Source of the DNA: a virus
Virus record (IMG/VR): IMGVR_UViG_3300031512_000004
Coordinates: 1 to 40,327 of that record
Length of the DNA: 40,327 bases
Strand: one strand, 5' to 3'
Translations under genes and position numbers: made by a program
Shown: positions 10,934-36,683 of the stretch, in pieces
Numbering within the stretch: the stretch's first letter is position 1
Layout of the letters: every line of letters begins with the position of its first letter
Notes under the pieces: model-generated
What the model was told of the DNA's origin: nothing
Database searches by the model: none
The model's input: only the letters and a program-made list of their open reading frames with translations

Positions 10934-11076
10934 TTATCGAGCTGGAGAAAATAAATCAACTACCGAGGGATTATATTTACAGAGCCTTTGTCGGACTGCC
11001 TAAAATAGAATTTGAAATCGCCTATAAGTTTAAATACCTCTATTTTATCCCATACAAACTAATAAACCCGCCCTAA
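10930..11076 (+). CDS. Hypothetical 48-residue protein
   Basis: The ATG at 10930 overlaps the preceding stop as ATGA. The product begins MIIELEKINQLPRDYIYRAF and ends YKLINPP. It has an aromatic-rich centre and no clear membrane span. Its last 18 bases overlap the 3' end of the convergent HNH gene. The 4-base coupling is the main support for it being real. Confidence 0.5.
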   Translation: MIIELEKINQLPRDYIYRAFVGLPKIEFEIAYKFKYLYFIPYKLINPP

Positions 11077-11403
11077 ATAAATATTTTTACCCTTTTCATA
11101 TTTATATTTATAGATTTTCCCCTTTATCCTAACCAAGCCTTTTTCCTCCTCAGGCTTGGTTTTCCATTTAATATTATTATTAATCCTCAGATTACATAGC
11201 CGATTATCCAATTTATCGCCGTTAATATGCTCGACCTTAAAACCTTTCGGCGGGTTAACTAAGAACCTATGTAAATAAGTAAGCCCCCCATGAAAATCAT
11301 TTGTCGCCAGGTAGCCATTAATTAACCTCCACCTGTACTTCGTTAGGAGATATTTATACTCCTCATCTATCTTCACTCTGTCAAAAATTTCGGCGGGAAT
11401 CAT
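11059..11403 (-). CDS. Free-standing HNH homing endonuclease-like protein
   Basis: A 114-residue protein on the opposite strand to its neighbours, preceded by TGGAGG at correct spacing. The N-terminal half (VKIDEEYKYLLTKYRWRLIN) and the core LHRFLVNPPKG...VEHINGDKLDNR with CNLRI match HNH_3-type homing endonucleases of phages: LHR and EHINGD supply metal-binding His residues and N the third H/N. The C-terminus is Lys-rich (KGKIYKYKYEKGK) and may bind DNA. Its antisense insertion at the boundary of the hairpin-rich island suggests a mobile gene. It would nick or cut DNA at an uninterrupted allele. Confidence 0.85.
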   Translation of the reverse strand: MIPAEIFDRVKIDEEYKYLLTKYRWRLINGYLATNDFHGGLTYLHRFLVNPPKGFKVEHINGDKLDNRLCNLRINNNIKWKTKPEEEKGLVRIKGKIYKYKYEKGKNIYLGRVY

Positions 11404-11764
11404 AAATCCTCCATTAGCAAGTATACCAGAGAGGAGAGTAGAGTGGCTAAAGATGGATAGAGGGAGTTAAGGGGAGATTATCGAGAATTTACGGATTGAG
11501 AGCGGTGGTGGGAGGGGGAGTACACCAGCGCCAGCAATTCTGGTTGCAGAAAATTTTTTCGGGCGCAAACTTTGTTGCAGCAATGCGGATTGCGGGGTTG
11601 GAAGCTTGCATGCTATATTTTTTGCATTTTGCGTTGCAGAACGAAAGATTAATAAACAGAACGTAAGATTAGAGTTTGATTAGAGTTACTCAAAAAACTT
11701 GACAATGGGCAATCTGGTTGGTATGCTAAAGCAAAAAACGTTTTTGCAGAAAGGAGCTAATGAG
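11404..11764. other. Intergenic region, left edge of hairpin-rich island
   Basis: No gene seen. It holds the start-side control of the HNH gene (TGGAGG, minus strand), three TTGCAG repeats (about 11543, 11572, 11633) and small hairpins such as GCAAT-GCGG-ATTGC. A strong rightward promoter at 11699-11727 ends it. Base composition changes from AT-rich to mixed within this stretch. Confidence 0.6.
11699..11727 (+). promoter_or_regulatory. Sigma70/sigmaA promoter for the hairpin-rich island
   Basis: TTGACA (11699-11704), 17-base spacer, TATGCT (11722-11727). The predicted start near 11734 leaves a short leader before the AAAGGAG and ATG at 11765. Confidence 0.75.
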
Positions 11765-12088
11765 ATGAAAAACCCCAACAACCCCAGCAAGACCAGCAAG
11801 GTCAAGCCCCCCAGCAAGGGGCAGATGTTGGCTACCATCGAGCAAGCCATCTCCAAGATGGAGTGGCCATTCGAGGTTAGGTTAACCCCCAAAGCTAAGC
11901 GTGACCTGATGGCGCCGGCGAACTACACATATCTAACTCAGGCGTACACTTGGGCAAACTACATTCTGACGTGGCAATACGGCAGAATGTATAGTGATGA
12001 CATTAATGCTGACTATGGAGAACTGATTAATATACTTGAAAGAATGTACACAGATAGGGTATTAGATTGGTCAATGAAGGAGCAATAA
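11765..12088 (+). CDS. Hypothetical protein, paralogue of the 12283 gene
   Basis: The ATG at 11765 follows AAAGGAG. The 107-residue product has a Pro/Lys/Ser-rich N-terminus and then a helical domain: IEQAISKMEWPFEVRLTPKA ... LTQAYTWANYIL ... GELINILERMY. The domain aligns with the gene two positions downstream (VEHAIQKMEAPRQVHLSSRA ... LDEAFRLAYRI ... RKLISVLVKMW), so the pair arose by duplication. Codon use here is GC-richer than in the replication genes. No known family; small size, promoter and island position suggest an accessory, perhaps host-takeover, protein. Confidence 0.65.
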   Translation: MKNPNNPSKTSKVKPPSKGQMLATIEQAISKMEWPFEVRLTPKAKRDLMAPANYTYLTQAYTWANYILTWQYGRMYSDDINADYGELINILERMYTDRVLDWSMKEQ

Positions 12089-12091
12089 GCC

Positions 12092-12286
12092 ATGAGTGAA
12101 AACCAGAGTTTTAAAAACCTTGTTAATCGCCGTGAGCGGAAAGCCGCTCGCCGGCGGGATTATGTCCGTGCGGCGTACTACGCCGCAGACCACGATAAGC
12201 GTTATGGCTTGCGTGTGTGGACAGCCATTAACGCTTTTCGGCGCCCTCTCGACCTGGGCGCCCCAGCTAGAAGGAGGGGAGAATGA
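12092..12286 (+). CDS. Hypothetical Arg-rich 64-residue protein with hairpin-packed gene
   Basis: The ATG at 12092 follows AAGGAG at the end of the previous gene, and the stop overlaps the next start as ATGA. The product is basic (NRRERKAARRRDYVRAAYYA, ending RRGE) and could bind nucleic acid. The 195-base gene holds four strong hairpins: GAGCGG/CCGCTC (12134-12149), GCGGCGTA/TACGCCGC (12170-12186), AGCGTTATGGCT/AGCCATTAACGCT (12198-12235) and GGCGCCC/GGGCGCC (12240-12262). The Arg and Ala richness may follow from, rather than cause, the hairpins. Confidence 0.5.
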   Translation: MSENQSFKNLVNRRERKAARRRDYVRAAYYAADHDKRYGLRVWTAINAFRRPLDLGAPARRRGE

Positions 12287-12549
12287 AACCGTTTGACCCT
12301 GACCCTGCGAGCTATCCCACATGGCTCAAGACTGTCATTGTCGAACACGCTATCCAAAAGATGGAAGCCCCTCGACAAGTACACTTGTCGAGCCGGGCTA
12401 GTCTTAAATTAATGAATTCTCGGTACAGACAGTATTTAGACGAGGCTTTCCGTCTGGCATATCGTATCACTTCTTTTTCAAACAATGACAACGATAAAGA
12501 ATATAGAAAATTAATTAGCGTTCTGGTCAAGATGTGGAAAGGAGAATGA
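12283..12549 (+). CDS. Hypothetical protein, paralogue of the 11765 gene
   Basis: An 88-residue product coupled by ATGA to the previous gene and preceded by AAGGAGGGGAG. It aligns with the 11765 gene across its helical domain (V-E-x-AI-x-KME ... A-x-x-x-LM ... LI-x-x-L-x-x-M). Within it lies a near-perfect 22-base palindrome, CTCGACAAGT-AC-ACTTGTCGAG (12371-12392). No recognised family. Confidence 0.6.
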   Translation: MKPFDPDPASYPTWLKTVIVEHAIQKMEAPRQVHLSSRASLKLMNSRYRQYLDEAFRLAYRITSFSNNDNDKEYRKLISVLVKMWKGE

Positions 12550-12552
12550 CAG

Positions 12553-12615
12553 ATGCTTTACGTACTACTAATTTTACTGTTCGTGTCCTTTTTCGTGTTC
12601 TTCCCCCGCCCGTAG
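12553..12615 (+). CDS. 20-residue hydrophobic micropeptide
   Basis: ATG at 12553 lies 8 bases after AAGGAG and encodes MLYVLLILLFVSFFVFFPRP, a single membrane-spanning stretch. Its stop codon TAG lies at the hinge of a perfect hairpin CCCCCGCC-CGTA-GGCGGGGG (12603-12622). The ribosome site and the uniform hydrophobicity support translation; the length makes it uncertain. A toxin, membrane-signal or leader-peptide role is possible. Confidence 0.45.
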   Translation: MLYVLLILLFVSFFVFFPRP

Positions 12616-12640
12616 GCGGGGGCGAACCCCAACTTCAATC

Positions 12641-12702
12641 CGTCCCTCCCTCATGAGGGAGGGACGCTATCCTCGATGATGCCAGTATCGACATCATCGA
12701 GG
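12641..12702. repeat. Two long perfect inverted repeats between genes
   Basis: 12641-12666 is a perfect 26-base palindrome centred on CTCATGAG with arms CGTCCCTCCCTCA. 12671-12681 (CCTCGATGATG) pairs perfectly with 12692-12702 (CATCATCGAGG) around a 10-base loop. Neither is followed by a T-run, so they are not ordinary terminators. Confidence 0.8.
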
Positions 12703-12728
12703 GGTGGGTTGGGAAGTGTACGTATCCT

Positions 12729-12756
12729 TTGACGATGCTGCGAACAGGGATATAAC
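12729..12756 (+). promoter_or_regulatory. Possible promoter for the Cys-rich gene at 12823
   Basis: TTGACG (12729-12734), 16-base spacer, TATAAC (12751-12756). It overlaps the two mutually exclusive hairpins described at 12742-12779. Match is good but not perfect. Confidence 0.4.
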
Positions 12757-12779
12757 TGTTCTTGCATACACAAGAACAG
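12742..12779 (+). promoter_or_regulatory. Mutually exclusive hairpins (switch-like leader)
   Basis: GAACAG (12742-12747) can pair with CTGTTC (12756-12761), while CTGTTCTTG (12756-12764) can instead pair with CAAGAACAG (12771-12779, 9 bp, 6-base loop). The shared middle strand makes the two folds incompatible, as in attenuators. It lies upstream of the AAGGAG of the 12823 gene. Confidence 0.4.
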
Positions 12780-12822
12780 AAGTAAAATTAGTTTATCTTA
12801 ATCTTAATAAGGAGTGTGTAGA

Positions 12823-13119
12823 ATGGAAGTTAAAGTTGTGATGTCGTGTAACTGTGAATGCAAGTGGCACGATTTAGACGTGCCGCCCGCGGTCAATGCT
12901 CCGTGTTATTGTGAAGCCCACGGAGACGTCGAAATTAAAGACGTCTCCGTAACCGGCGTCGCGGACTTCTTCGTCCGCGACATGTCCGGTAACTGGTGGC
13001 ATCGCGGAGAAATCATTTCGGATGAGGAGCTAGCTTCAAAGCTAGCGAACACTGAACACGAGACTTTTCCGTGTTTCACGAAAAGCGTTCCGCCGGCGTT
13101 AATTATTATTAACTATTAA
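12823..13119 (+). CDS. Hypothetical Cys-rich protein with hairpin-packed gene
   Basis: The ATG at 12823 is favoured by AAGGAG at 12809. The 98-residue product starts MEVKVVMSCNCECKWHDLDV and has a second Cys cluster (APCYCEAHG), a possible metal-binding N-terminus; the C-terminus is hydrophobic. The gene contains CGGAGACGTC/GACGTCTCCG (12921-12949), GTCGCGGAC/GTCCGCGAC nested inside ACCGG/CCGGT (12952-12990), GCTAGCTT/AAGCTAGC (13029-13046) and AACACG/CGTGTT (13055-13075). No family recognised. Confidence 0.55.
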   Translation: MEVKVVMSCNCECKWHDLDVPPAVNAPCYCEAHGDVEIKDVSVTGVADFFVRDMSGNWWHRGEIISDEELASKLANTEHETFPCFTKSVPPALIIINY

Positions 13120-13132
13120 TGGAGGTGTAACA

Positions 13133-13558
13133 ATGAATACTTTCGATAAACGAACACTAAAAAGAGTATCAAGTGCGCTACTCTCTCTGTCGAGTAGCAC
13201 GTACACTTCAGTTCGCGTGCCATTCGGCCCCCAGGTTGACACCTGGGGGCGGAACGGGCGAAACCCGAAGTGGGCAGTCCGTGATAAAAGCCCACTTCTA
13301 GAAGAACTGGAGGGGTATTTCGTCTTCGACAACGGGAAGCACGCATGTATTGTTTCTTCATATTTCGTTAATTTAAACATCGATATTAAAACAGTATATG
13401 CCCCGATGCCTATCCACTCTGTTTTCCCCCTGTTCAGGGGGGTGGGGGAGGTCTTCCTCGCCTCCTCCCCCGAAGGGGTGAGAAGGCTGTTCTTTCCTTG
13501 GGCTGTTGCTCACGTGTGGGTGGCAAACCCGTACGTGGAACTGTTAAAAGTCGGTTAA
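13133..13558 (+). CDS. Hypothetical protein with hairpin-packed gene
   Basis: A 141-residue product after TGGAGGTGTAAC. It begins MNTFDKRTLKRVSSALLSLS and has a hydrophobic C-terminal third (LFFPWAVAHVWVANPYVELL). Inside the gene are GCCCCCAGGT/ACCTGGGGGC with a 4-base loop (13227-13250), GAAGTGGGC/GCCCACTTC (13267-13298), CCCCCT/AGGGGG (13426-13441) and GGGGGAGG/CCTCCCCC (13444-13471). It ends 29 bases before the next start. No family recognised. Confidence 0.5.
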   Translation: MNTFDKRTLKRVSSALLSLSSSTYTSVRVPFGPQVDTWGRNGRNPKWAVRDKSPLLEELEGYFVFDNGKHACIVSSYFVNLNIDIKTVYAPMPIHSVFPLFRGVGEVFLASSPEGVRRLFFPWAVAHVWVANPYVELLKVG

Positions 13559-13587
13559 CTCGATTAATATTTTACAAGGAGTGCAAA

Positions 13588-13998
13588 ATGAGCGAAAAAT
13601 TAGAAGTCATAAAAACCCGGCGGGGCAACCCCGCCCTCTGGGTGGGCGGGGGCGCCACTACCTCGAAATTCTCCGCCCGCTTCGTGATGCGGGCGGAGGA
13701 GCTAGCCCGGGCGTGCTTCATTGCCCGGCACGGGCACAGATGCAATGCCGGGCAAGCCCTTGTCCCCCTTCTGGAGGGGGACATCGTTGTTGAACTGAGC
13801 GGCCGGCGTCCCGCGTCGCCGGACAATCCAGACTTATTCATTCTCGCTCGTCGTATAATTAGCTTTGAAGACGATAACCAGCACAAAATTGCTATCGTCG
13901 AGTACGTCGACGTTTCTGTCGACGACATTCCCCCCTCCGTGTGGAGGGGGTGCGAAATCTATCACAACAGAGATGGACGCTACTTTATAGCTGAGTAG
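13588..13998 (+). CDS. Hairpin-packed accessory protein, copy 1 (LWVGGGAT family)
   Basis: The ATG at 13588 follows AAGGAGTGC. The 136-residue product contains PALWVGGGATTSKFSARFV, QALVPLLEGDI, RPASPDNPD, DDIPPSVW and a terminal DGRYFIAE; it aligns along its whole length with the 15393 gene. At least six perfect hairpins lie within its 411 bases, for example GGCGGGG/CCCCGCC (13619-13635), CTCCGCCCGC/GCGGGCGGAG (13671-13698), TTGCCCGGC/GCCGGGCAA (13721-13755), GTCCCCCT/AGGGGGAC (13762-13782), CGTCGAC/GTCGACG (13905-13924) and CCCCCTCC/GGAGGGGG (13931-13950). A strong terminator follows. Function unknown; I vaguely recall similar W-GGG-containing small proteins but cannot name a family. Confidence 0.65.
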   Translation: MSEKLEVIKTRRGNPALWVGGGATTSKFSARFVMRAEELARACFIARHGHRCNAGQALVPLLEGDIVVELSGRRPASPDNPDLFILARRIISFEDDNQHKIAIVEYVDVSVDDIPPSVWRGCEIYHNRDGRYFIAE

Positions 13999-14051
13999 CG
14001 TCTATCTCTCCCCAATTCCCCGCCGGCTAGCCTCCACTAGCCGGCACCGGA

Positions 14052-14090
14052 GCCGGGGCTACTTACGACGTAGCCCCGGCATTTTTGTTT
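14052..14090 (+). terminator. Rho-independent terminator after copy 1
   Basis: GCCGGGGCTA (14052-14061) pairs perfectly with TAGCCCCGGC (14071-14080), 9-base loop, followed by ATTTTTGTTT. The stem end and tail closely resemble those of the terminator after copy 2 at 15854. Confidence 0.85.
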
Positions 14091-14170
14091 ACCAACACTG
14101 CCCACTGCCCAGTATCCAGTGTCCACTACCCACCGGGCAGGGGAGGGGCAGGTAGAAAAAAAAACCCAAT

Positions 14171-14273
14171 GCGCCAAAAATGCCACCCAAGCCTCAGGGC
14201 GCCACTTCCCCCTGGGCAACTTAAAAATGGCATTAGGCGCGGGCTAAAAATTTTTCGCCCCGATTCACGGGGC
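14171..14273 (+). promoter_or_regulatory. Repeated structured leader element, copy A1
   Basis: GCGCC (14171-14175) pairs with GGCGC (14236-14240), and TGCC with GGCA inside it, across an A-rich internal loop. The conserved block CTTAAAAATGGC (14220-14231) is followed after 12 bases by CTAAAAATTTTT (14244-14255) and hairpin GCCCCG/CGGGGC (14257-14273). No gene follows directly; the element runs into copy A2 after 23 bases. Confidence 0.6.
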
Positions 14274-14296
14274 AGAAGATAAGCAAAAAACTTGAT

Positions 14297-14409
14297 GCGC
14301 CAAAAATTCCGCCCCTGAAGCTTAGGGAAAGCCACCCCCAAAGGCGGCTTAAAAATGGCGCAAAATGAAACCAAAAATTTTACGAACAACACGCCCCCAT
14401 CTACGGGGC
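14297..14409 (+). promoter_or_regulatory. Repeated structured leader element, copy A2
   Basis: GCGCC (14297-14301) pairs with GGCGC and CCGCC with GGCGG, flanking an AAAAATT/CTTAAAAAT internal loop. A CCCT/AGGG hairpin lies inside. CTTAAAAATGGC (14348-14359) is followed after 11 bases by CCAAAAATTTT (14371-14381) and hairpin GCCCC/GGGGC (14393-14409). It sits just before the AAGGAG of the 14443 gene, so it is probably its 5' leader. Confidence 0.65.
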
Positions 14410-14442
14410 AATAAACGACAGATAAGAAAGGAGAATAGAAAA

Positions 14443-14883
14443 ATGTACTACTATAAAGACAGTAACAAAATCTACGAAGTGGTTTCCATTCGGGACATCT
14501 ACCCCGAAGAAGCTGCCTTCCCGTATTATATCTGCCGAAAGGGCGACCCTATTCCCAAAGGCTATACCATCATCTGCCGGGGTATCCGGCGATACAGTAA
14601 TGATGGATTTGTTTACCTCTATCCCGTAAAGGATAACGAGGATGGAGATTATATCGTCTGTGTCTATGAGGGGGAGCAAGAGATGGTAGACGAAAAAAGT
14701 TTTGAAGAACTACTAGATAGGTATGAGCGCGCTTTAAATGGCGCACTCTACGAGTACACAATCAAGGAGTATTCTAAAACTCACGGCGGAATTTGGATAT
14801 TGGAGGGGGAAACGAAATCAATTGACATTCCGCCGGGAAACCCTGTGGAGGTGCAAAAAATCGAAATCTTGATTGAGAAATAA
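14443..14883 (+). CDS. Hypothetical acidic protein behind leader element A2
   Basis: The ATG at 14443 is preceded by AAGGAGAATAG; an in-frame ATG at 14365 lies inside the leader element and is rejected. The 146-residue product (MYYYKDSNKIYEVVSIRDIY...) is acidic and Tyr-rich with no membrane span. It contains fewer internal hairpins than its neighbours (GCCGG-GGTAT-CCGGC near 14577 is one). Function unknown. A stem GCCCCGCC/GGGCGGGGC follows the stop. Confidence 0.6.
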   Translation: MYYYKDSNKIYEVVSIRDIYPEEAAFPYYICRKGDPIPKGYTIICRGIRRYSNDGFVYLYPVKDNEDGDYIVCVYEGEQEMVDEKSFEELLDRYERALNGALYEYTIKEYSKTHGGIWILEGETKSIDIPPGNPVEVQKIEILIEK

Positions 14884-14934
14884 AACTATCGCCCCGCCTT
14901 TTGTCCGATGGGCGGGGCGAGAAAAAATTTTCAT

Positions 14935-15049
14935 CTCGCCAAAAAATTCACCCTCAAAGCTTTGGGAATGTCATATCCCTAAACGGCTTAAAAATGGCGA
15001 GTAGAGAAATCTAAAAATTTTATCAATTCACGCCTCACACGCGAGGCGT
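14935..15049 (+). promoter_or_regulatory. Repeated structured leader element, copy B
   Basis: CTCGCC (14935-14940) pairs with GGCGAG at 14996-15001 around the A-rich internal loop; CCC/GGG hairpins lie inside. CTTAAAAATGGC (14987-14998) is followed after 12 bases by CTAAAAATTTT (15011-15021) and hairpin ACGCCTC/GAGGCGT (15030-15049). The AAAGGAG of the 15075 gene follows within 20 bases. Confidence 0.65.
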
Positions 15050-15074
15050 AAGAAAAACAAGAAAGGAGTATAAA

Positions 15075-15380
15075 ATGGACACTATCAATATCATATCGTT
15101 CACACTATCGGTTGCAAAATATACTACTGCAACCCCCGAAGAATTGGCTGAGTTAATTAGCCTAACTCGAAAATTGCACACAATAAATGAGCGCCTCTGT
15201 ATGGAGGAAGATGTAGAACGCCTGCTAAAAAAGCAGGAACGCCTAATGGCGCATATTTATGATTTGGCAAACAAAATCGGGGCTAGTGCTGTTTGTGGTA
15301 GCGACCCTCGATTTGCAACCGTCAAACTTTTCTTCGAGGGTATGCCGAACTTCATGGATGGTATAAGTGTACCATATTAA
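15075..15380 (+). CDS. Hypothetical helical protein behind leader element B
   Basis: A 101-residue product after GAAAGGAG. The centre is a long charged helix (ELISLTRKLHTINERLCMEE, then DVERLLKKQERLMAHIYDLA), a possible coiled coil. The gene holds short hairpins: GGTTGCA/TGCAACC near 15110, GAGTTA/TAACTC near 15150, CCTGCT/AGCAGG near 15222, CCCTCGA/TCGAGGG near 15305 and ATGGTA/TACCAT near 15357. The stop is 12 bases before the start of copy 2 of the LWVGGGAT pair, so they probably share a transcript. Confidence 0.6.
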   Translation: MDTINIISFTLSVAKYTTATPEELAELISLTRKLHTINERLCMEEDVERLLKKQERLMAHIYDLANKIGASAVCGSDPRFATVKLFFEGMPNFMDGISVPY

Positions 15381-15392
15381 TAGGAGAATAAA

Positions 15393-15809
15393 ATGAACGA
15401 TATACTATACGTATTCACTGAAAAAACTCAAAAGGGATTCCCCACCCTTTGGGTTGGGGGCGGAGCAACCAGTAACCGTTTTTCCGCAACTTTTGTTTTA
15501 CGGAACGGGGGGCTTGCTCCCGCAAGTTTTATTCGCACATCTAGATTTCGCTCCAATAACGAACAAGCCCTTGTCCCTCTCCAGAAGGGGGATATTCTGG
15601 TAGGTGTAGAGGGATTCCTCCCCGCAAGTCCGGACAACCCCGTAATCGGAATTCACGGGTGGAAGGTAAAGGGGTTCAAAATCTATGATGACAATATACT
15701 TGCCATCATGGAATCCGTAGATATTAATAGCGATGATATTCCTTCCTCCGTCTGGGAGGGAGCGAATATCTACTGTAATCTGGATGGGAGATATTTTGTT
15801 TCCGAGTAA
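15393..15809 (+). CDS. Hairpin-packed accessory protein, copy 2 (LWVGGGAT family)
   Basis: A 138-residue product after TAGGAGAATAAA, homologous to the 13588 gene along its length. Shared blocks include LWVGGGAT, QALVPL, PASPDNP, DDIP-x-SVW and DGRYF. Stems occur at the same codons although bases differ: TTCCG/CGGAA (15482-15505), GTCCCTCT/AGGGGGAT (15573-15593) and TTCCTCC/GGAGGGA (15743-15761) match the positions of copy 1 stems at 13671, 13762 and 13931. It is followed by a terminator like that of copy 1. Function unknown. Confidence 0.65.
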   Translation: MNDILYVFTEKTQKGFPTLWVGGGATSNRFSATFVLRNGGLAPASFIRTSRFRSNNEQALVPLQKGDILVGVEGFLPASPDNPVIGIHGWKVKGFKIYDDNILAIMESVDINSDDIPSSVWEGANIYCNLDGRYFVSE

Positions 15810-15853
15810 GTAACCTCCCCTCCCCACCTCCATTTGTAATTGCGCAACTGGAA

Positions 15854-15895
15854 CCGGGGTTATCTTCATAGATAACCCCGGCGTTTTTGTTTATT
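15854..15895 (+). terminator. Rho-independent terminator after copy 2
   Basis: CCGGGGTTATC (15854-15864) pairs perfectly with GATAACCCCGG (15871-15881), 6-base loop, followed by CGTTTTTGTTTATT. The tail is nearly the same as in the copy 1 terminator at 14052, supporting duplication of a gene-plus-terminator cassette. Confidence 0.85.
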
Positions 15896-15968
15896 GATAC
15901 AACTACGGGCAGATAATTTTGAAGAGTATTCTTACTAATGCATACGTTCCTTGTTCACTGGAGGAATC

Positions 15969-16022
15969 ATGATTATCTTAATTACTTATCCCAATATCAA
16001 AACTTCAAAACCGAATACGTGA
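15969..16022 (+). CDS. Possible 17-residue peptide
   Basis: ATG at 15969 follows CTGGAGGAATC, an excellent ribosome site, and encodes MIILITYPNIKTSKPNT. A small hairpin ACGTG-AAA-CACGT spans the stop. The good site is the only support; it could be a leader peptide or chance. Confidence 0.25.
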   Translation: MIILITYPNIKTSKPNT

Positions 16023-16092
16023 AACACGTTTACAAGCATTGACAAGTGCGAAAATTTGTTTCTGAGCTTCTGAAGAAAATTTTTTCCGCATG

Positions 16093-16188
16093 TCAAAAAT
16101 TTTCCGCTCAAGGCTTCAAAAACGACTACACCATAGAGCAGCTTAAAAATGGCGCTAGACAAAACTAAAATTTTTCAGATTCTGAAAA
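16093..16188 (+). promoter_or_regulatory. Repeated structured leader element, copy C (divergent)
   Basis: CTTAAAAATGGC (16142-16153) is followed after 11 bases by CTAAAATTTTT (16165-16175) and hairpin TTTTCAG/CTGAAAA (16172-16188). The 5' side is weaker: GTC (16093) pairs with GAC near 16158, and GCTC with GAGC inside. It lies 216 bases before the next gene and may be decaying. A further 3' fragment (TGGC then CTAAAAATTTTT after 11 bases) is at 16291-16317. Confidence 0.5.
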
Positions 16189-16404
16189 GTTTTTCGGTTT
16201 TTGAGGAGGAAGACGGTAAGGTGAAAATTTTTCAAAAAACGAAAAAATTTGACAAGGCGCTAATGTTAAGAAAAGTTTAAAGAAAGTCGATGGCACAGAA
16301 CAAAACTAAAAATTTTTCGCATATCTATCACTCCTTCAAAAATTCTTCGATTAACGAACGAATTGCAGGTATGCTAGTATAATAATTGTAGGAGATGAGA
16401 TGTC

Positions 16405-17223
16405 ATGTTACCACTCGAAAAAATAGAAGTTAATATACCTCTAAAAGAGTCAGAAATTGACCCAAAAGGGTTGGAGGAGATAGAGAAAATTTTAAATAAA
16501 TCCGGGATTTTCCTGAACTTCTCTTATCTAATTGAGAGAATCTCCCCCGATTGGATAGTTTCAAAGGGGGAATTCGCAGGTACATTCCCCAAAAGATTTG
16601 CGAAGATTTGCAAACAATGGAAAATTACCCTTGATAACAGAATATTAGGGGATATTGGGAATATCGTCCGAAAATATACTCTCAACCGGGAATATTTTAT
16701 CGAGTTTTCCAAAAATTTTAACTGGACTCCTGGAGAATTCGGTGATAAAAATTCTTGCTTCTTTGGTATGTATAGGTACCAAAGGACAAGAATTAAACTA
16801 TTAGGGGGATATGCAATGAAGGTTTATGATGAATCTCAATCCCCCCTTGGTAGAGCTTGGGTTCTACCTTATGATGAAAAGGAGAAAAACTTTCTGGTGT
16901 TTAATTCTTATAACACCAGGAATTATAATCTAATCTTCTTCGCCAGATTATTGGCGATTTATTTGGGGGGAATTTATGAAATGATAACCGGGAATATACC
17001 CAACATTTATACAAATAATAAACACTTTTACTTCATCACTACAGAGGGGGTAGAGTTTAGCTGGGCGGAACTGTGGAGGTATATAGAAAGTAACTTAATA
17101 ATCTGCCCCACTTGCGGGGAATCTCACCCCATACTAGATTTAAAAACATACCTAAATGATACCAAGTTATATTGTCCATCATGTGGCACTACACTGGCAG
17201 GAGAGGAAGATGTTCAATATTAA
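16405..17223 (+). CDS. Hypothetical protein with C-terminal zinc ribbon
   Basis: A 272-residue product after AGGAGATGAGATGTC. The bulk is a mixed, aromatic-rich domain with no recognised motif. The last 45 residues form a zinc ribbon, CPTCGESHP ... YCPSCGTTL (two CxxC pairs). Base composition returns to the AT-rich phage norm. It overlaps the next small gene by 14 bases. A nucleic-acid role is suggested only by the ribbon and the RuvB-like neighbour. Confidence 0.6.
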   Translation: MLPLEKIEVNIPLKESEIDPKGLEEIEKILNKSGIFLNFSYLIERISPDWIVSKGEFAGTFPKRFAKICKQWKITLDNRILGDIGNIVRKYTLNREYFIEFSKNFNWTPGEFGDKNSCFFGMYRYQRTRIKLLGGYAMKVYDESQSPLGRAWVLPYDEKEKNFLVFNSYNTRNYNLIFFARLLAIYLGGIYEMITGNIPNIYTNNKHFYFITTEGVEFSWAELWRYIESNLIICPTCGESHPILDLKTYLNDTKLYCPSCGTTLAGEEDVQY

Positions 17224-28056: not shown

Positions 28057-28716
28057 TTAAATACTTCTCTTTGACCACTTTCTGAACGGTTCAAGTTGAT
28101 TATGTAACGCTTCCAGTATTTCAACATCTGCCTTGTTATGTTCGAGGACAGCCTTCAGCGCGTTTGACTCACCTAGCGATGCTTTCATCCAAACAAGAGA
28201 ATCTAGATGAGTTTTACCCTCTATACCCACCAGCCGACAAGCATTCTCTAGAGTATTTCTACTCAATTTCAATTTAGAACGCACTGTCCAATACAAATCC
28301 CAAGTATAAATTTCTCCATAAGCTGGAAATTCTAGTTTATGGTACAAAGCCCTAGTCCTTATAAAGGGTAGGTCAAACCTGTCGCCGTAATATGTAATAA
28401 TGATTTTAAAAGACTTAAGTTGTCCAATCAAAGATTTTACAATCCGATAATCAAATGAATATGAAGATAAATCCTTTTTTGAAATTACATCATAATATAT
28501 CTTACCATCTTTTTCTTTTACACACCAAGAAAGCATAAAACCATAATCACCGTTTAATTGAGTTGTTTCAATATCTAAATACCCAATTCTATATGCAGGA
28601 TATTTATACCAAGGCTGACCAGTCTTCTTTTCGAAGTCTTTATCATCAACATATCCCTGCGCAAAACAAGATGGATGCTCTTCAATTGTGTGTCTATGTT
28701 TACAACGTAATATCAC
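28057..28716 (-). CDS. DEDD-family 3'-5' exonuclease-like protein (YprB type)
   Basis: A 219-residue RNase H-fold protein. Acidic motifs are in order: RIGYLDIETTQL (DxE), ITYYGDRFDLPFI (NGxxFDxPF-type exo II), and HNKADVEILEAL (HNxxDV-type exo III). This set matches the predicted 3'-5' exonuclease family that includes Bacillus YprB. It could proofread, process recombination ends or trim RNA. It is coupled by overlap to the upstream sigma-region-4-like gene and lies in the leftward replication operon. Confidence 0.72.
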   Translation of the reverse strand: MILRCKHRHTIEEHPSCFAQGYVDDKDFEKKTGQPWYKYPAYRIGYLDIETTQLNGDYGFMLSWCVKEKDGKIYYDVISKKDLSSYSFDYRIVKSLIGQLKSFKIIITYYGDRFDLPFIRTRALYHKLEFPAYGEIYTWDLYWTVRSKLKLSRNTLENACRLVGIEGKTHLDSLVWMKASLGESNALKAVLEHNKADVEILEALHNQLEPFRKWSKRSI

Positions 28717-29128
28717 TACTTAACTCCTTATTAAAAGTCTGAATTAGTTTTCTAAATTCGTCTTCTGTAAGATTATATTTCTTCATCAAATATCTAGCGT
28801 AACCTTCATTAGTAAACTTCCCGCCCAAATATAAAGCTAATTTGTTACATATACTATCAAATTTTTTGGAGATTGTTATTCTGGAAATACCATAAATTTT
28901 TTCCAAACTACGAAAGGACTTATTTAGCGTAATAAGATTTAAAATTAAAATTTCCTCATCTGTAATTAAACCAGCTTTATATAGAGTTTCTATCTTAGTC
29001 TCTAATGTCATTAAATCGTCATACAAATCAGAATCAAAATTAAAATAAACAACATCATCTACTTGCTGAACGATAGATGTTTTTATTTCGTCTCGATTTA
29101 ACAATAACAGTTTAATATAAGCACTCAT
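28700..29128 (-). CDS. Helix-turn-helix protein, sigma region 4-like
   Basis: A 142-residue protein. Residues about 55-95 read LITDEEILILNLITLNKSFR then SLEKIYGISRITISKKFDSI, the spacing of a sigma-70 region 4 helix-turn-helix; a matching region 2 is not apparent. It could be an anti-sigma, an accessory factor or a divergent phage sigma factor for late genes. The gene overlaps its neighbours by 4 and 17 bases within the leftward operon. Confidence 0.5.
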   Translation of the reverse strand: MSAYIKLLLLNRDEIKTSIVQQVDDVVYFNFDSDLYDDLMTLETKIETLYKAGLITDEEILILNLITLNKSFRSLEKIYGISRITISKKFDSICNKLALYLGGKFTNEGYARYLMKKYNLTEDEFRKLIQTFNKELSSDITL

Positions 29129-32795: not shown

Positions 32796-34901
32796 TTATT
32801 TTGTCCAATGTTTGTTAATTTTCACCTCAACAACGGCGGGTATTTCGCCCAAAAATTTTTGTTCTACCTCCTCCATCGTTTTTATAACAAAATCTTTAGC
32901 GTCATCAATAATCTCCTCCGCAACCTCGAACACAATTTCGTCATGCACTTGTAAAATAATTCTAAACTTATCTAATCCGAAAGGATTTTCATAAAAACAT
33001 CTAACCATTGCTAGTTTAACAATATCTGCCCCCGTGCCTTGAATAAGCGCATTATAGCCCTGTCTCATAATCCTAGATTTTAACTCTTTAAACTCATCAA
33101 CCGAATTGTAGATAACTGGCTTTTCATACCACCGTCTTCTTCCAAAAGCTGTAACAGAATAACCCCGCTCAAAAGTTTTCTCACCAAACAATTTTCTAAA
33201 TTGCACTGAAGTTACATAAGACGTATTTATTGAATCAATGATTTCTTGCGCATACTCCAAATTAAATCCCAAAACTTTGTGCAATTTCATTGCAGAACCG
33301 CCATACAAAGTCAAAAAATTAATTTTTTTTCCATCTGTTCTCTGTTCTTTAGTTACCTGTTCTAAAGGCACTTTATAAGCAATTGAAGCTGTAGCCGTAT
33401 GAATATCATGTCCCGCTTTGTAAGCATTTATAATCTTTTTATCTCCCGATAATGCCCCAGCTAATCTATACTCCTGCTGATTATAATCAGCGTCTAAAAT
33501 TAAAAACCCAGGTCGGGCAATAAACATCTTTCTAAACTCCTCAGTAGCGGGAATATTTTGACAATTGGGGTTGCTTGAACTAAATCTGCCAGTAGCTGTC
33601 CCTACCTGATTAAATTCAGGGTGAAGACACCCTGTTAAAGGATGAATCTTACTAACAATATTTTTACCATAAGTTGTTAACAACTTTTGTATTTCTCGAT
33701 ATTTTAAAAGCATTTTTATAATATCATGAGATAGATAATCTTGTAATGTTTGTTCATTCGTGTTTGGCACTTCCACTCCCAACAAATGTAGAATCGACAA
33801 TACCTGTTTAGGAGAATCTAAATTAATATTATCTAGTAACCAATCTTTTATATAATCAATATCATAAACAGTCTCTAAAAATTGTTTAGCTTTTTTAGTC
33901 TTTACGGGTATGCTTAACTCTTCACAAATCTCTAAAAGATTCTTACCTTCCAAACGGTCAAGCAAATAAGTAAACAAATAAGATTTCAAATTTCTCTCCT
34001 CTTCATCTCTTCTTGATTCAAGTAAAGGTAATGTTTGAGTCCAAGTATCGGTATCAATTTTTATGCCTAGATATTCCATCATCGTAACTACAGGAACGAG
34101 CTTCATTTCCAAATCTAAGACGTGTTCTAAATTAAATTCCTTAGAAAGCTCTACCTGTTTTAAGTATATCCTATCAAGGTATTTTAGGTCATTTATCAAA
34201 TAATCTATTTGCTCCTCAGAAAATTCATCATTTTCTTTACCGATAAAAGTATCTCTTATCTCCTTTTCTAATTGTACACCAAAATATTTATTTGTCAAGT
34301 CGTTTAAGGATAAAAATGAGCTACCTAAACCCGCGGTTAATACGCCCTCGGCAATAAAAATATCAAAAATATTTTTTAATAAAACACCATATTTAGCGTA
34401 AATAAACTTCAAGTCAAACTTAAGATTATGCCCGATAAATAATTTATCTTGTAAACTTGTAAAAAATTTCACAATCGGGGCGGTTTGACGAGGATTTATA
34501 ATTATAAGAATGCCATCATCTTTTTGTAGAACGATTGTTCCGCTTTCGGAAAATTCGGTTTGAAAGTCCCGAAAGGAATTAAAATCTTTTTGTAGAACAA
34601 TTGTTCTATTTTCGGAAGCCTCGGTTAAGGAGGCTAGATTCGATTCTAAATTTTTTTGTTCTGAGCGGAAAGGGTGGGTGGGTGGGAGAACAGCATTCGC
34701 TTGAAAATCGGTTTTATTTTTTAGACACGCTCTATTAGAATCAACGAAGTTGATACTATTCGGTATAAAAAGACCAATTAACAAAACAGAATCGGTAAGA
34801 AAATCTAATCCGCTTGTTTCGAGGTCAATGCAAAGAATTCTGCAATTTTGCAGAAAATTTTGCAATTTTTCTAAGATTTCGGTTTGTTTATCTACACGCA
34901 T
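32796..34901 (-). CDS. polA: Family A DNA polymerase with 3'-5' exonuclease domain
   Basis: A 701-residue protein lacking the 5'-nuclease domain. Exonuclease motifs: RILCIDLETSGLDF (exo I), FIGHNLKFDLKF (exo II) and YLINDLKYLDRIY (exo III). Polymerase motifs: A, ILDADYNQQEYRLA; B, RTDGKKINFLTLYGGS; C, LQVHDEIVFEV. In motif B the position equivalent to E. coli Phe762 is Phe, and the following Gly is replaced by Leu. Residues about 58-130 are an insertion between exo I and exo II with Asn-rich and repeated sequence. It is the replicative polymerase, first gene of the leftward operon. Confidence 0.93.
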   Translation of the reverse strand: MRVDKQTEILEKLQNFLQNCRILCIDLETSGLDFLTDSVLLIGLFIPNSINFVDSNRACLKNKTDFQANAVLPPTHPFRSEQKNLESNLASLTEASENRTIVLQKDFNSFRDFQTEFSESGTIVLQKDDGILIIINPRQTAPIVKFFTSLQDKLFIGHNLKFDLKFIYAKYGVLLKNIFDIFIAEGVLTAGLGSSFLSLNDLTNKYFGVQLEKEIRDTFIGKENDEFSEEQIDYLINDLKYLDRIYLKQVELSKEFNLEHVLDLEMKLVPVVTMMEYLGIKIDTDTWTQTLPLLESRRDEEERNLKSYLFTYLLDRLEGKNLLEICEELSIPVKTKKAKQFLETVYDIDYIKDWLLDNINLDSPKQVLSILHLLGVEVPNTNEQTLQDYLSHDIIKMLLKYREIQKLLTTYGKNIVSKIHPLTGCLHPEFNQVGTATGRFSSSNPNCQNIPATEEFRKMFIARPGFLILDADYNQQEYRLAGALSGDKKIINAYKAGHDIHTATASIAYKVPLEQVTKEQRTDGKKINFLTLYGGSAMKLHKVLGFNLEYAQEIIDSINTSYVTSVQFRKLFGEKTFERGYSVTAFGRRRWYEKPVIYNSVDEFKELKSRIMRQGYNALIQGTGADIVKLAMVRCFYENPFGLDKFRIILQVHDEIVFEVAEEIIDDAKDFVIKTMEEVEQKFLGEIPAVVEVKINKHWTK
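34519..34626. repeat. 42-bp direct repeat with palindrome inside the polymerase gene
   Basis: Copies at 34519-34560 and 34585-34626 (66 bases apart, 22 codons) share CTTTTTGTAGAAC and a TCGG-rich end. Both encode a TIVLQKD segment. Copy 2 contains a perfect palindrome TAGAACAATTGTTCTA (34593-34608); copy 1 has a decayed version. Confidence 0.8.
34672..34686 (+). other. G-quadruplex motif in the polymerase gene
   Basis: GGGTGGGTGGGTGGG on the plus strand: four G3 runs with single-base loops, the tightest canonical quadruplex form. The gene is on the minus strand, so the mRNA has the C-rich form and the template strand the G-rich one. Confidence 0.8.
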
Positions 34902-35197
34902 TAAACCTCCTTTCGGAAAAATTATTGGGCAGTTAGTTCATCTATAATTTTTTATTTTTATCATAATTATCCTAAGTTTAATTGCGTTTATCGTTAATAA
35001 GCGTTTAGTTTATTCCGAATTCCGTTCACCGCTTACGGTCATTGTAATTTATTTTTTATTTATTATCCAAGTCTTGTCCCCGCAATTTTACCTATTTTTT
35101 AGCAGAAAAGTCAAGACTTGTCAAGGGTTTTTTCGTTAGAGTTTTATTAATTTTCTATAAGAAGAGTATTAGAATCTTTGCTTTTAGCTTATACCTA

Positions 35198-35226
35198 AGA
35201 ATACCAAACTAACTGTAACTTGTCAA
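35198..35226 (-). promoter_or_regulatory. Leftward promoter for the replication operon
   Basis: On the minus strand TTGACA (35226-35221), 17-base spacer, TATTCT (35203-35198). Its -35 is one arm of the palindrome TGTCAAGCCTTGACA. Confidence 0.65.
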
Positions 35227-35229
35227 GCC

Positions 35230-35258
35230 TTGACAATAGGTTGATTATGCGCTAAAAT
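35230..35258 (+). promoter_or_regulatory. Rightward early promoter
   Basis: TTGACA (35230-35235), 17-base spacer, TAAAAT (35253-35258). Its -35 is the other arm of the same palindrome. The gene at 35296 follows with AAAGGAGG. Confidence 0.75.
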
Positions 35259-35295
35259 GCAATAAAAGAGTTATAATTATAATAAAGGAGGTTTT

Positions 35296-36609: not shown

Positions 36610-36683
36610 GCCCCAGTAGTTCAATGGACGAACAGCGGTCTTCTAAACCGTTAGTCATGCAGGTTCGAATCCTGCCTGGGGCA
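36610..36683 (+). tRNA. tRNA-Arg (anticodon UCU)
   Basis: A full cloverleaf: acceptor GCCCCAG/CTGGGGC, D stem GTTC/GAAC, anticodon stem GCGGT/ACCGT with loop CTTCTAA (anticodon TCT), T stem GCAGG/CCTGC with loop TTCGAAT, discriminator A. CCA is not encoded. The variable loop is somewhat long (7 bases). It reads AGA codons, common in these AT-rich genes. Confidence 0.92.

Follow-up and report, generated by a model that had tools for sequence, protein, structure and literature searches.

A repeated, hairpin-forming element of ~110 letters was identified ahead of some of the accessory genes in a phage contig (record IMGVR_UViG_3300031512_000004; 40,327 nt, analysed over its full length and referred to here as the window). 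The preferred reading, with a probability put at roughly 40%, is that of a cis-acting, phage-specific module at which expression units of the accessory island start, the mRNA beginning, most likely by processing of a read-through transcript, in a linker within the element. Seen directly in the sequence are the set of copies, the pairing and covariation of a stem, P1 (in copies A1, A2 and B and in the copy of related phage G001), a hairpin, P4, formed by different letters, and a placement between terminators.

The contig carries a tailed-phage gene set that includes its own polymerase, a helicase, a ribonucleotide reductase, methyltransferases and one tRNA. G+C content is mostly 32–40% across the window, and is higher (41–52%) in an island at 11–16 kb (11000–16300), the genes of which are probably acquired accessory genes. 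The island consists of small orphan genes and lies near a change of sign in the GC skew. The order of features is gene X, terminator T1, A1, A2, gene 14443, a hairpin, B, gene 15075, gene X', terminator T2, C, D and the 16405 gene, placing A1, A2 and B between the strong terminators T1 and T2 in the GC-rich accessory stretch. The genes, terminators and promoter concerned are:

11699–11727, plus strand: textbook promoter, TTGACA-17-TATGCT, for the first unit of the island, a unit that ends at T1.
14052–14080, plus strand: intrinsic terminator T1, upstream of A1, with an 11-pair stem and a ATTTTTGTTT tail.
14443–14883, plus strand: gene 14443, behind A1/A2, encoding 146 aa with no family match.
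14889–14920, plus strand: strong hairpin TCGCCCCGCC/GGCGGGGCGA after gene 14443 and upstream of B, with no U-tail (-24 kcal/mol, z -4.1).
15075–15380, plus strand: gene 15075, behind B, encoding 101 aa with no family match; its G001 homologue is without the element.
15393–15809, plus strand: gene X', a paralogue of gene X (13588–13998) with 51% identity, a similar terminator following each.
15854–15881, plus strand: intrinsic terminator T2, which resembles T1, upstream of C.

The gene X family (13588–13998 and 15393–15809) shares the motif WVGGGAT..FSA.FV, with duplicated terminators behind the copies, and found no match in Pfam, PHROG or PADLOC. The gene 14443 product likewise had no match in Pfam or PADLOC.

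Four copies plus a fragment had been described in a first-pass annotation of the sequence. The 12-mer CTTAAAAATGGC was confirmed at 14220, 14348, 14987 and 16142, exact in each case, all on the plus strand and nowhere else in the window; the chance of an exact 12-mer at the same composition, in 40 kb and on both strands, is estimated at ~0.01 for a 12-mer that was picked after being seen. The second block, reported as C(T/C)AAAA-A/T-TTTT, was found as YYAAAAWTTTT 11–12 nt after CTTAAAAATGGC in every copy. The tandem arrangement of A1 and A2 (128 nt apart) and the position of A2 and B directly ahead of the AAGAAAGGAG ribosome sites of genes 14443 and 15075 were also as described. The fragment is present, and is actually a degenerate copy, D, orthologous to an intact copy in G001. 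The copies are:

14169–14274, plus strand: copy A1, with 5' arms GCGCC (14171–14175) and AATGCC (14179–14184), block CTTAAAAATGGC (14220–14231), GGCGC (14236–14240), linker CTAAAAATTTTT (14244–14255) and P4 (14256–14274).
14296–14410, plus strand: copy A2, with 5' arm TGCGCCA (14296–14302), block (14348–14359), 3' arm TGGCGCA (14356–14362), linker CCAAAAATTTT (14371–14381) and P4 (14392–14410); missing from related phage G002.
14935–15049, plus strand: copy B, with 5' arm CTCGCCA (14935–14941), block (14987–14998), 3' arm TGGCGAG (14995–15001), linker CTAAAAATTTT (15011–15021) and P4 (15030–15049).
16092–16206, plus strand: copy C, with block (16142–16153), linker CTAAAATTTTT (16165–16175), an A/T-rich hairpin and a weak 5' stem.
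~16279–16316, plus strand: copy D, degenerate, with GTCGATGGC for TTAAAAATGGC (covariance model 24.3 bits, E 0.016).

Outside the window, true copies were found only in the related phages G001 (IMGVR_UViG_3300031245_000003) and G002 (IMGVR_UViG_3300031948_000002) by whole-collection pattern scans of viral contigs. G002, which is ~88–98% identical, has A1, B and C; the gain or loss of A2 looks like recombination between the tandem copies. G001 has one intact copy, the orthologue of D, at the contig edge. A position weight matrix scan of the three phages gave no additional copies. A2 and B, together with A1 and B of G002, stand immediately ahead of ribosome sites; C and D are exceptions, and one strand is used throughout.

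P1 consists of the 5' arm paired with the end of the conserved block. All seven pairs form in A2 (UGCGCCA/UGGCGCA), in B (CUCGCCA/UGGCGAG) and, with two wobble pairs, in the G001 copy (GUUGCCA/UGGCAGU), and A1 pairs in a shifted register (AAUGCCA/UGGCAUU plus GCGCC/GGCGC). The 5' stem with compensating bases proposed earlier thus stood for A2, B and, in the other register, A1, and failed for C, where 5/7 pairs form. Against shuffled 5' regions, the 5' pairing gave p = 0.0025 for A1, 0.016 for A2, 0.017 for B, 0.10 for the G001 copy and 0.92 for C; with all copies combined, own-arm pairing against shuffles reached a Fisher value of 2.4e-4, and the summed own-arm pairings ranked 4th among 120 arm permutations. 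RNAalifold recovered P1 unaided, with 3 pairs changed on both sides, and 85.7% of cells in the named structure are paired versus 19–38% in slid controls; the level of covariation was matched by 31/500 shuffles. G002 substitutions around the A1 stem preserve the pairs GCGCC/GGCGC and AAUGCC/GGCAUU. These figures lend support of moderate strength, rather than proof, to a P1 stem kept by compensatory changes, there being ~5 independent copies, among which C fails. Arm complementarity could also persist without selection, via repair between quasi-palindromic arms.

A downstream hairpin had been assigned to every copy. Those of A1, A2 and B are more stable than shuffled sequences (z -4.4, -2.7 and -4.5, respectively), whereas C has no excess fold stability. 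In G002, copy B forms an unrelated hairpin, UCACGC/GCGUGA, at the same place as P4 of B in the window. The half of A1 from the block to P4 (14206–14278) differs from that of G002 in 2/73 columns, compared with 37/136 on the 5' side. The description of a structured element ahead of ribosome sites therefore applies to A1/A2 and B, given the covariation and the hairpin kept in the sister phage, and not to C, which is weakly structured and has no ribosome site after it.

In the proposed RNA fold, P1 would be a closing stem of 7 pairs with an A-rich internal loop that carries the conserved CUUAAAAA strand, followed by an unpaired linker, CYAAAAAUU(UU), then P4 and ~15–30 nt to the ribosome site. 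The genes would be reached by transcripts reading through T1, and a host endoribonuclease would cut in the A/U-rich linker that separates P1 from P4. This would leave a mature mRNA that begins at or just before P4, a hairpin that would shield the 5' end and leave the ribosome site open. RNase E recognises a core RN|WUU in single-stranded RNA and prefers A/U-rich single-stranded sites (PMC5222698). AAAUU is found in all linkers, between P1 and P4, and is compatible with this core on sequence grounds, though in A/T-rich linkers it is expected by chance. T1 is a strong terminator, and read-through is therefore an assumption of the model. Other points were counted against processing: copy C is almost without P1 but retains the two sequence blocks; the intact G001 copy has a textbook TTGACA-17-TATAAT promoter ~60 nt downstream; and the two blocks, 17–18 nt apart with a free spacer, have a promoter-like arrangement.

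The main rival, rated somewhat less likely than processing but still strong, is that the element acts in DNA as a promoter or operator of a non-canonical kind that probably depends on an activator, with starts near P4 and with arms that bind a phage regulator. The parts would be CTTAAAA at -35 and CTAAAAW at -10, 17–18 bp apart. The spacing TTAAAA-17/18-YAAAAW is seen in all intact copies and the spacer sequence is free. No textbook promoter was found in the T1–T2 interval, leaving the island unit there with no other promoter, and a -10 of TAAAAT is used elsewhere by the phage (35230). Copy C, which keeps both blocks in the absence of a good P1, is the best plus-strand site between T2 and 16405 (7.7 bits), and in G001, where genes 15075 and 15393 belong to a different operon, they lack the element. 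However, while the sigma-70 spacing of 17–18 bp is satisfied, the hexamers score 3.6–7.7 bits; A1, A2, B and the G001 copy reach 3.6–4.1 bits, against 12–15 bits for the phage's real promoters, which are textbook, CTTGACA-17-TATAAT-like sigma-70 sites. The ATGGC in the spacer has no explanation under a promoter, the outer stem positions of the two arms change together, something not required of a plain operator, and the hairpin of G002 copy B starts 2 nt past the would-be -10.

Processing and initiation predict alike that the mRNA starts in the linker before P4, with the ribosome site 15–30 nt further on. Processing is favoured because P1, which is upstream of any start in the linker, covaries on both sides, and because the element is a poor sigma-70 promoter. 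The near-invariant block-to-P4 half of A1 and the finding of no sigma-70 site >5 bits from T1 to gene 14443 were also counted for it.

The element may instead be a dispersed quasi-palindromic repeat with no regulatory role, spread by duplication of a module of gene X, terminator and element. The duplicated X-terminator module, the gain or loss of A2 by recombination between tandem copies and the decay of D fit such a history. Against it, the 3' half is far better conserved than the 5' side (the 2/73 versus 37/136 columns above), the two blocks stay unchanged in copies that have otherwise diverged, and hairpins are maintained with different letters; passive spread is judged improbable.

The 15075 and 15393 (X') genes occupy another place in G001, where they follow a methyltransferase gene, use a ribosome site of their own and lack the element, and the intact G001 copy, standing upstream of its promoter, would form no 5' leader from that promoter. 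A riboswitch-like, gene-specific leader, a riboswitch being one of the options named in the first-pass annotation, thus fared poorly, since the element stays neither with gene 15075 nor with any functional class. More broadly, a regulatory leader sensing a ligand or protein (a riboswitch, an autogenous repressor site or an antitermination RNA such as HK022 put) would account for the stem and conserved A-rich loop, the tandem copies and the placement before ribosome sites. It is nevertheless rated quite improbable, as the genes behind the copies are small orphans unrelated to one another, 15075 and 15393 manage without the element in G001, no switching terminator or hairpin sequestering the ribosome site was seen at the element, Rfam gave no match and C stands ahead of no ribosome site.

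Translation from the ATG within AAAAATGGC, as small coding sequences or leader peptides, was given very little credence. ORFs of 6–43 codons do begin there, and the products of A2 and D are alike (MAQNETKNF and MAQNKTKNF). The ATG has no ribosome site ahead, though, copies with 11-nt and 12-nt spacing differ in frame but not in nucleotides, and there is a 7-nt gap in that stretch between C/D and G001. These frames span ~14356–14415 in A2 (19 codons), ~16150–16281 in C (43 codons; MALDKTKIF) and ~16289–16381 in D (30 codons), and in A1, B and G001 they run to 6 codons only. ORFs on the minus strand across A2 and C were discarded, as their frames are not kept.

No known RNA class had been recognised in the first reading, and Rfam 15 gave no significant match at 14000–16450, even in a permissive search; the only Rfam 15 match in the window at the gathering score was the tRNA at 36610. 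Type III toxin-antitoxin RNAs, short tandem repeats ahead of a ToxN-like nuclease gene, were rejected, the unit here being ~126 nt in two copies and the 14443 product having no Pfam or PADLOC match. Integron attC sites and solitary CRISPR repeats were dropped on sequence or layout.

The closest known kind is the start-associated sequences (SAS/ESAS) of Cluster K mycobacteriophages, where a GGGATAGGAGCCC consensus lies at start codons (PMC3203893). Both are repeats particular to a phage lineage that precede small accessory genes from several families, mostly share a single orientation and have upstream an imperfect inverted repeat whose spacer varies; for both, the function is unproven. However, the SAS has a different sequence, spans 13 bp and sits at the start codon, and its consensus GGGATAGGAGCCC is absent from the element. 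The ESAS arms are 17 bp with spacers of 4–13 bp, compared with ~50 bp here, and the authors saw little support for mRNA hairpins, whereas the arms here covary. No downstream hairpin appears in the part of the description used, while the element here has P4.

Several other phage elements offer partial parallels. T4 gives a precedent for processing of this sort in a phage: RNase E cuts 71 nt upstream of the gene 32 start codon in a polycistronic mRNA, a site conserved in T4-related phages (PMC3014915). There too, a structured A/U-rich leader is found in a polycistronic phage mRNA, the T4 cut falling upstream of the ribosome site and yielding a stable downstream mRNA; however, the T4 case concerns one gene, autoregulated by gp32, with an experimentally proven cut and no repeated element, whereas here the cut is only predicted (PMC3014915). 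The 17-bp repeat of Cluster O mycobacteriophages is likewise a dyad repeat spread in phage genomes, but has invariant arms and >30 copies, also within genes, whereas here the arms vary and 4–5 copies are confined to one island (PMC4351075). The put RNA of HK022 is a phage RNA element that acts in cis, as is proposed here, but put suppresses pausing and termination in early transcription, and no such arrangement was seen here (PMC9378689).

Further members of the family, to be sought with a covariance model as the first-pass annotation had proposed, did not emerge. Model R1, run over 324 kb, returned the known copies, D in both phages and then chance-level matches. Among viral contigs, the strict bipartite pattern matched G001 and G002 only, the relaxed pattern added 12 contigs, none with arms, and the 5'-arm pattern picked up nine unrelated stretches in addition to G002, most of them gene starts TAAAAATGGC. 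In the species-genome collection, the pattern had 18 matches, all judged to be chance (no arms, many in coding sequence). Relatives sought via neighbouring proteins were again G001 and G002 only, and when the element region was compared with phage and plasmid records by similarity search, only chance matches resulted. The covariance model and pattern searches together thus revealed no true members outside the window, G001 and G002.

Small genes of obscure use are common in phage accessory islands, and it is seldom clear how newcomers become expressed. A module specific to one lineage, marking unit starts and keeping its fold as the letters change, would serve as a portable expression signal and aid the recognition of expression units in uncultured phages. 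If processing occurs as proposed, an exchangeable accessory gene would gain expression by landing behind the element. The combination of stem, A-rich loop, A/U linker and hairpin might even define a new class of phage leader RNA that makes and protects mRNA 5' ends behind a terminator, although this is an uncertain, rather unlikely prospect. Should the element be a weak regulated promoter instead, it would point to a phage transcription regulator not yet known.

Further observations were made in the course of the comparison. In G001 (33001–34532; L028 8852–10383), the 15075/15393 pair has an extra 248-aa gene between its members, and the pair may be a mobile cassette with its junction at the ribosome site. 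In the window (16340–16400) and in G002, where C is present, the TTGACA-17-TATAAT promoter that the 16405 homologue has in G001 (43978, minus strand) is degraded. A minus-strand gene at 28700–29128 encodes a 142-aa protein with a sigma-like helix-turn-helix look and no Pfam match. Divergent promoters, TTGACA-17-TAAAAT rightward and TTGACA-17-TAAAAA leftward, were found at 34900–35290, at the GC-skew minimum, and this region is likely to be the early control region and origin.
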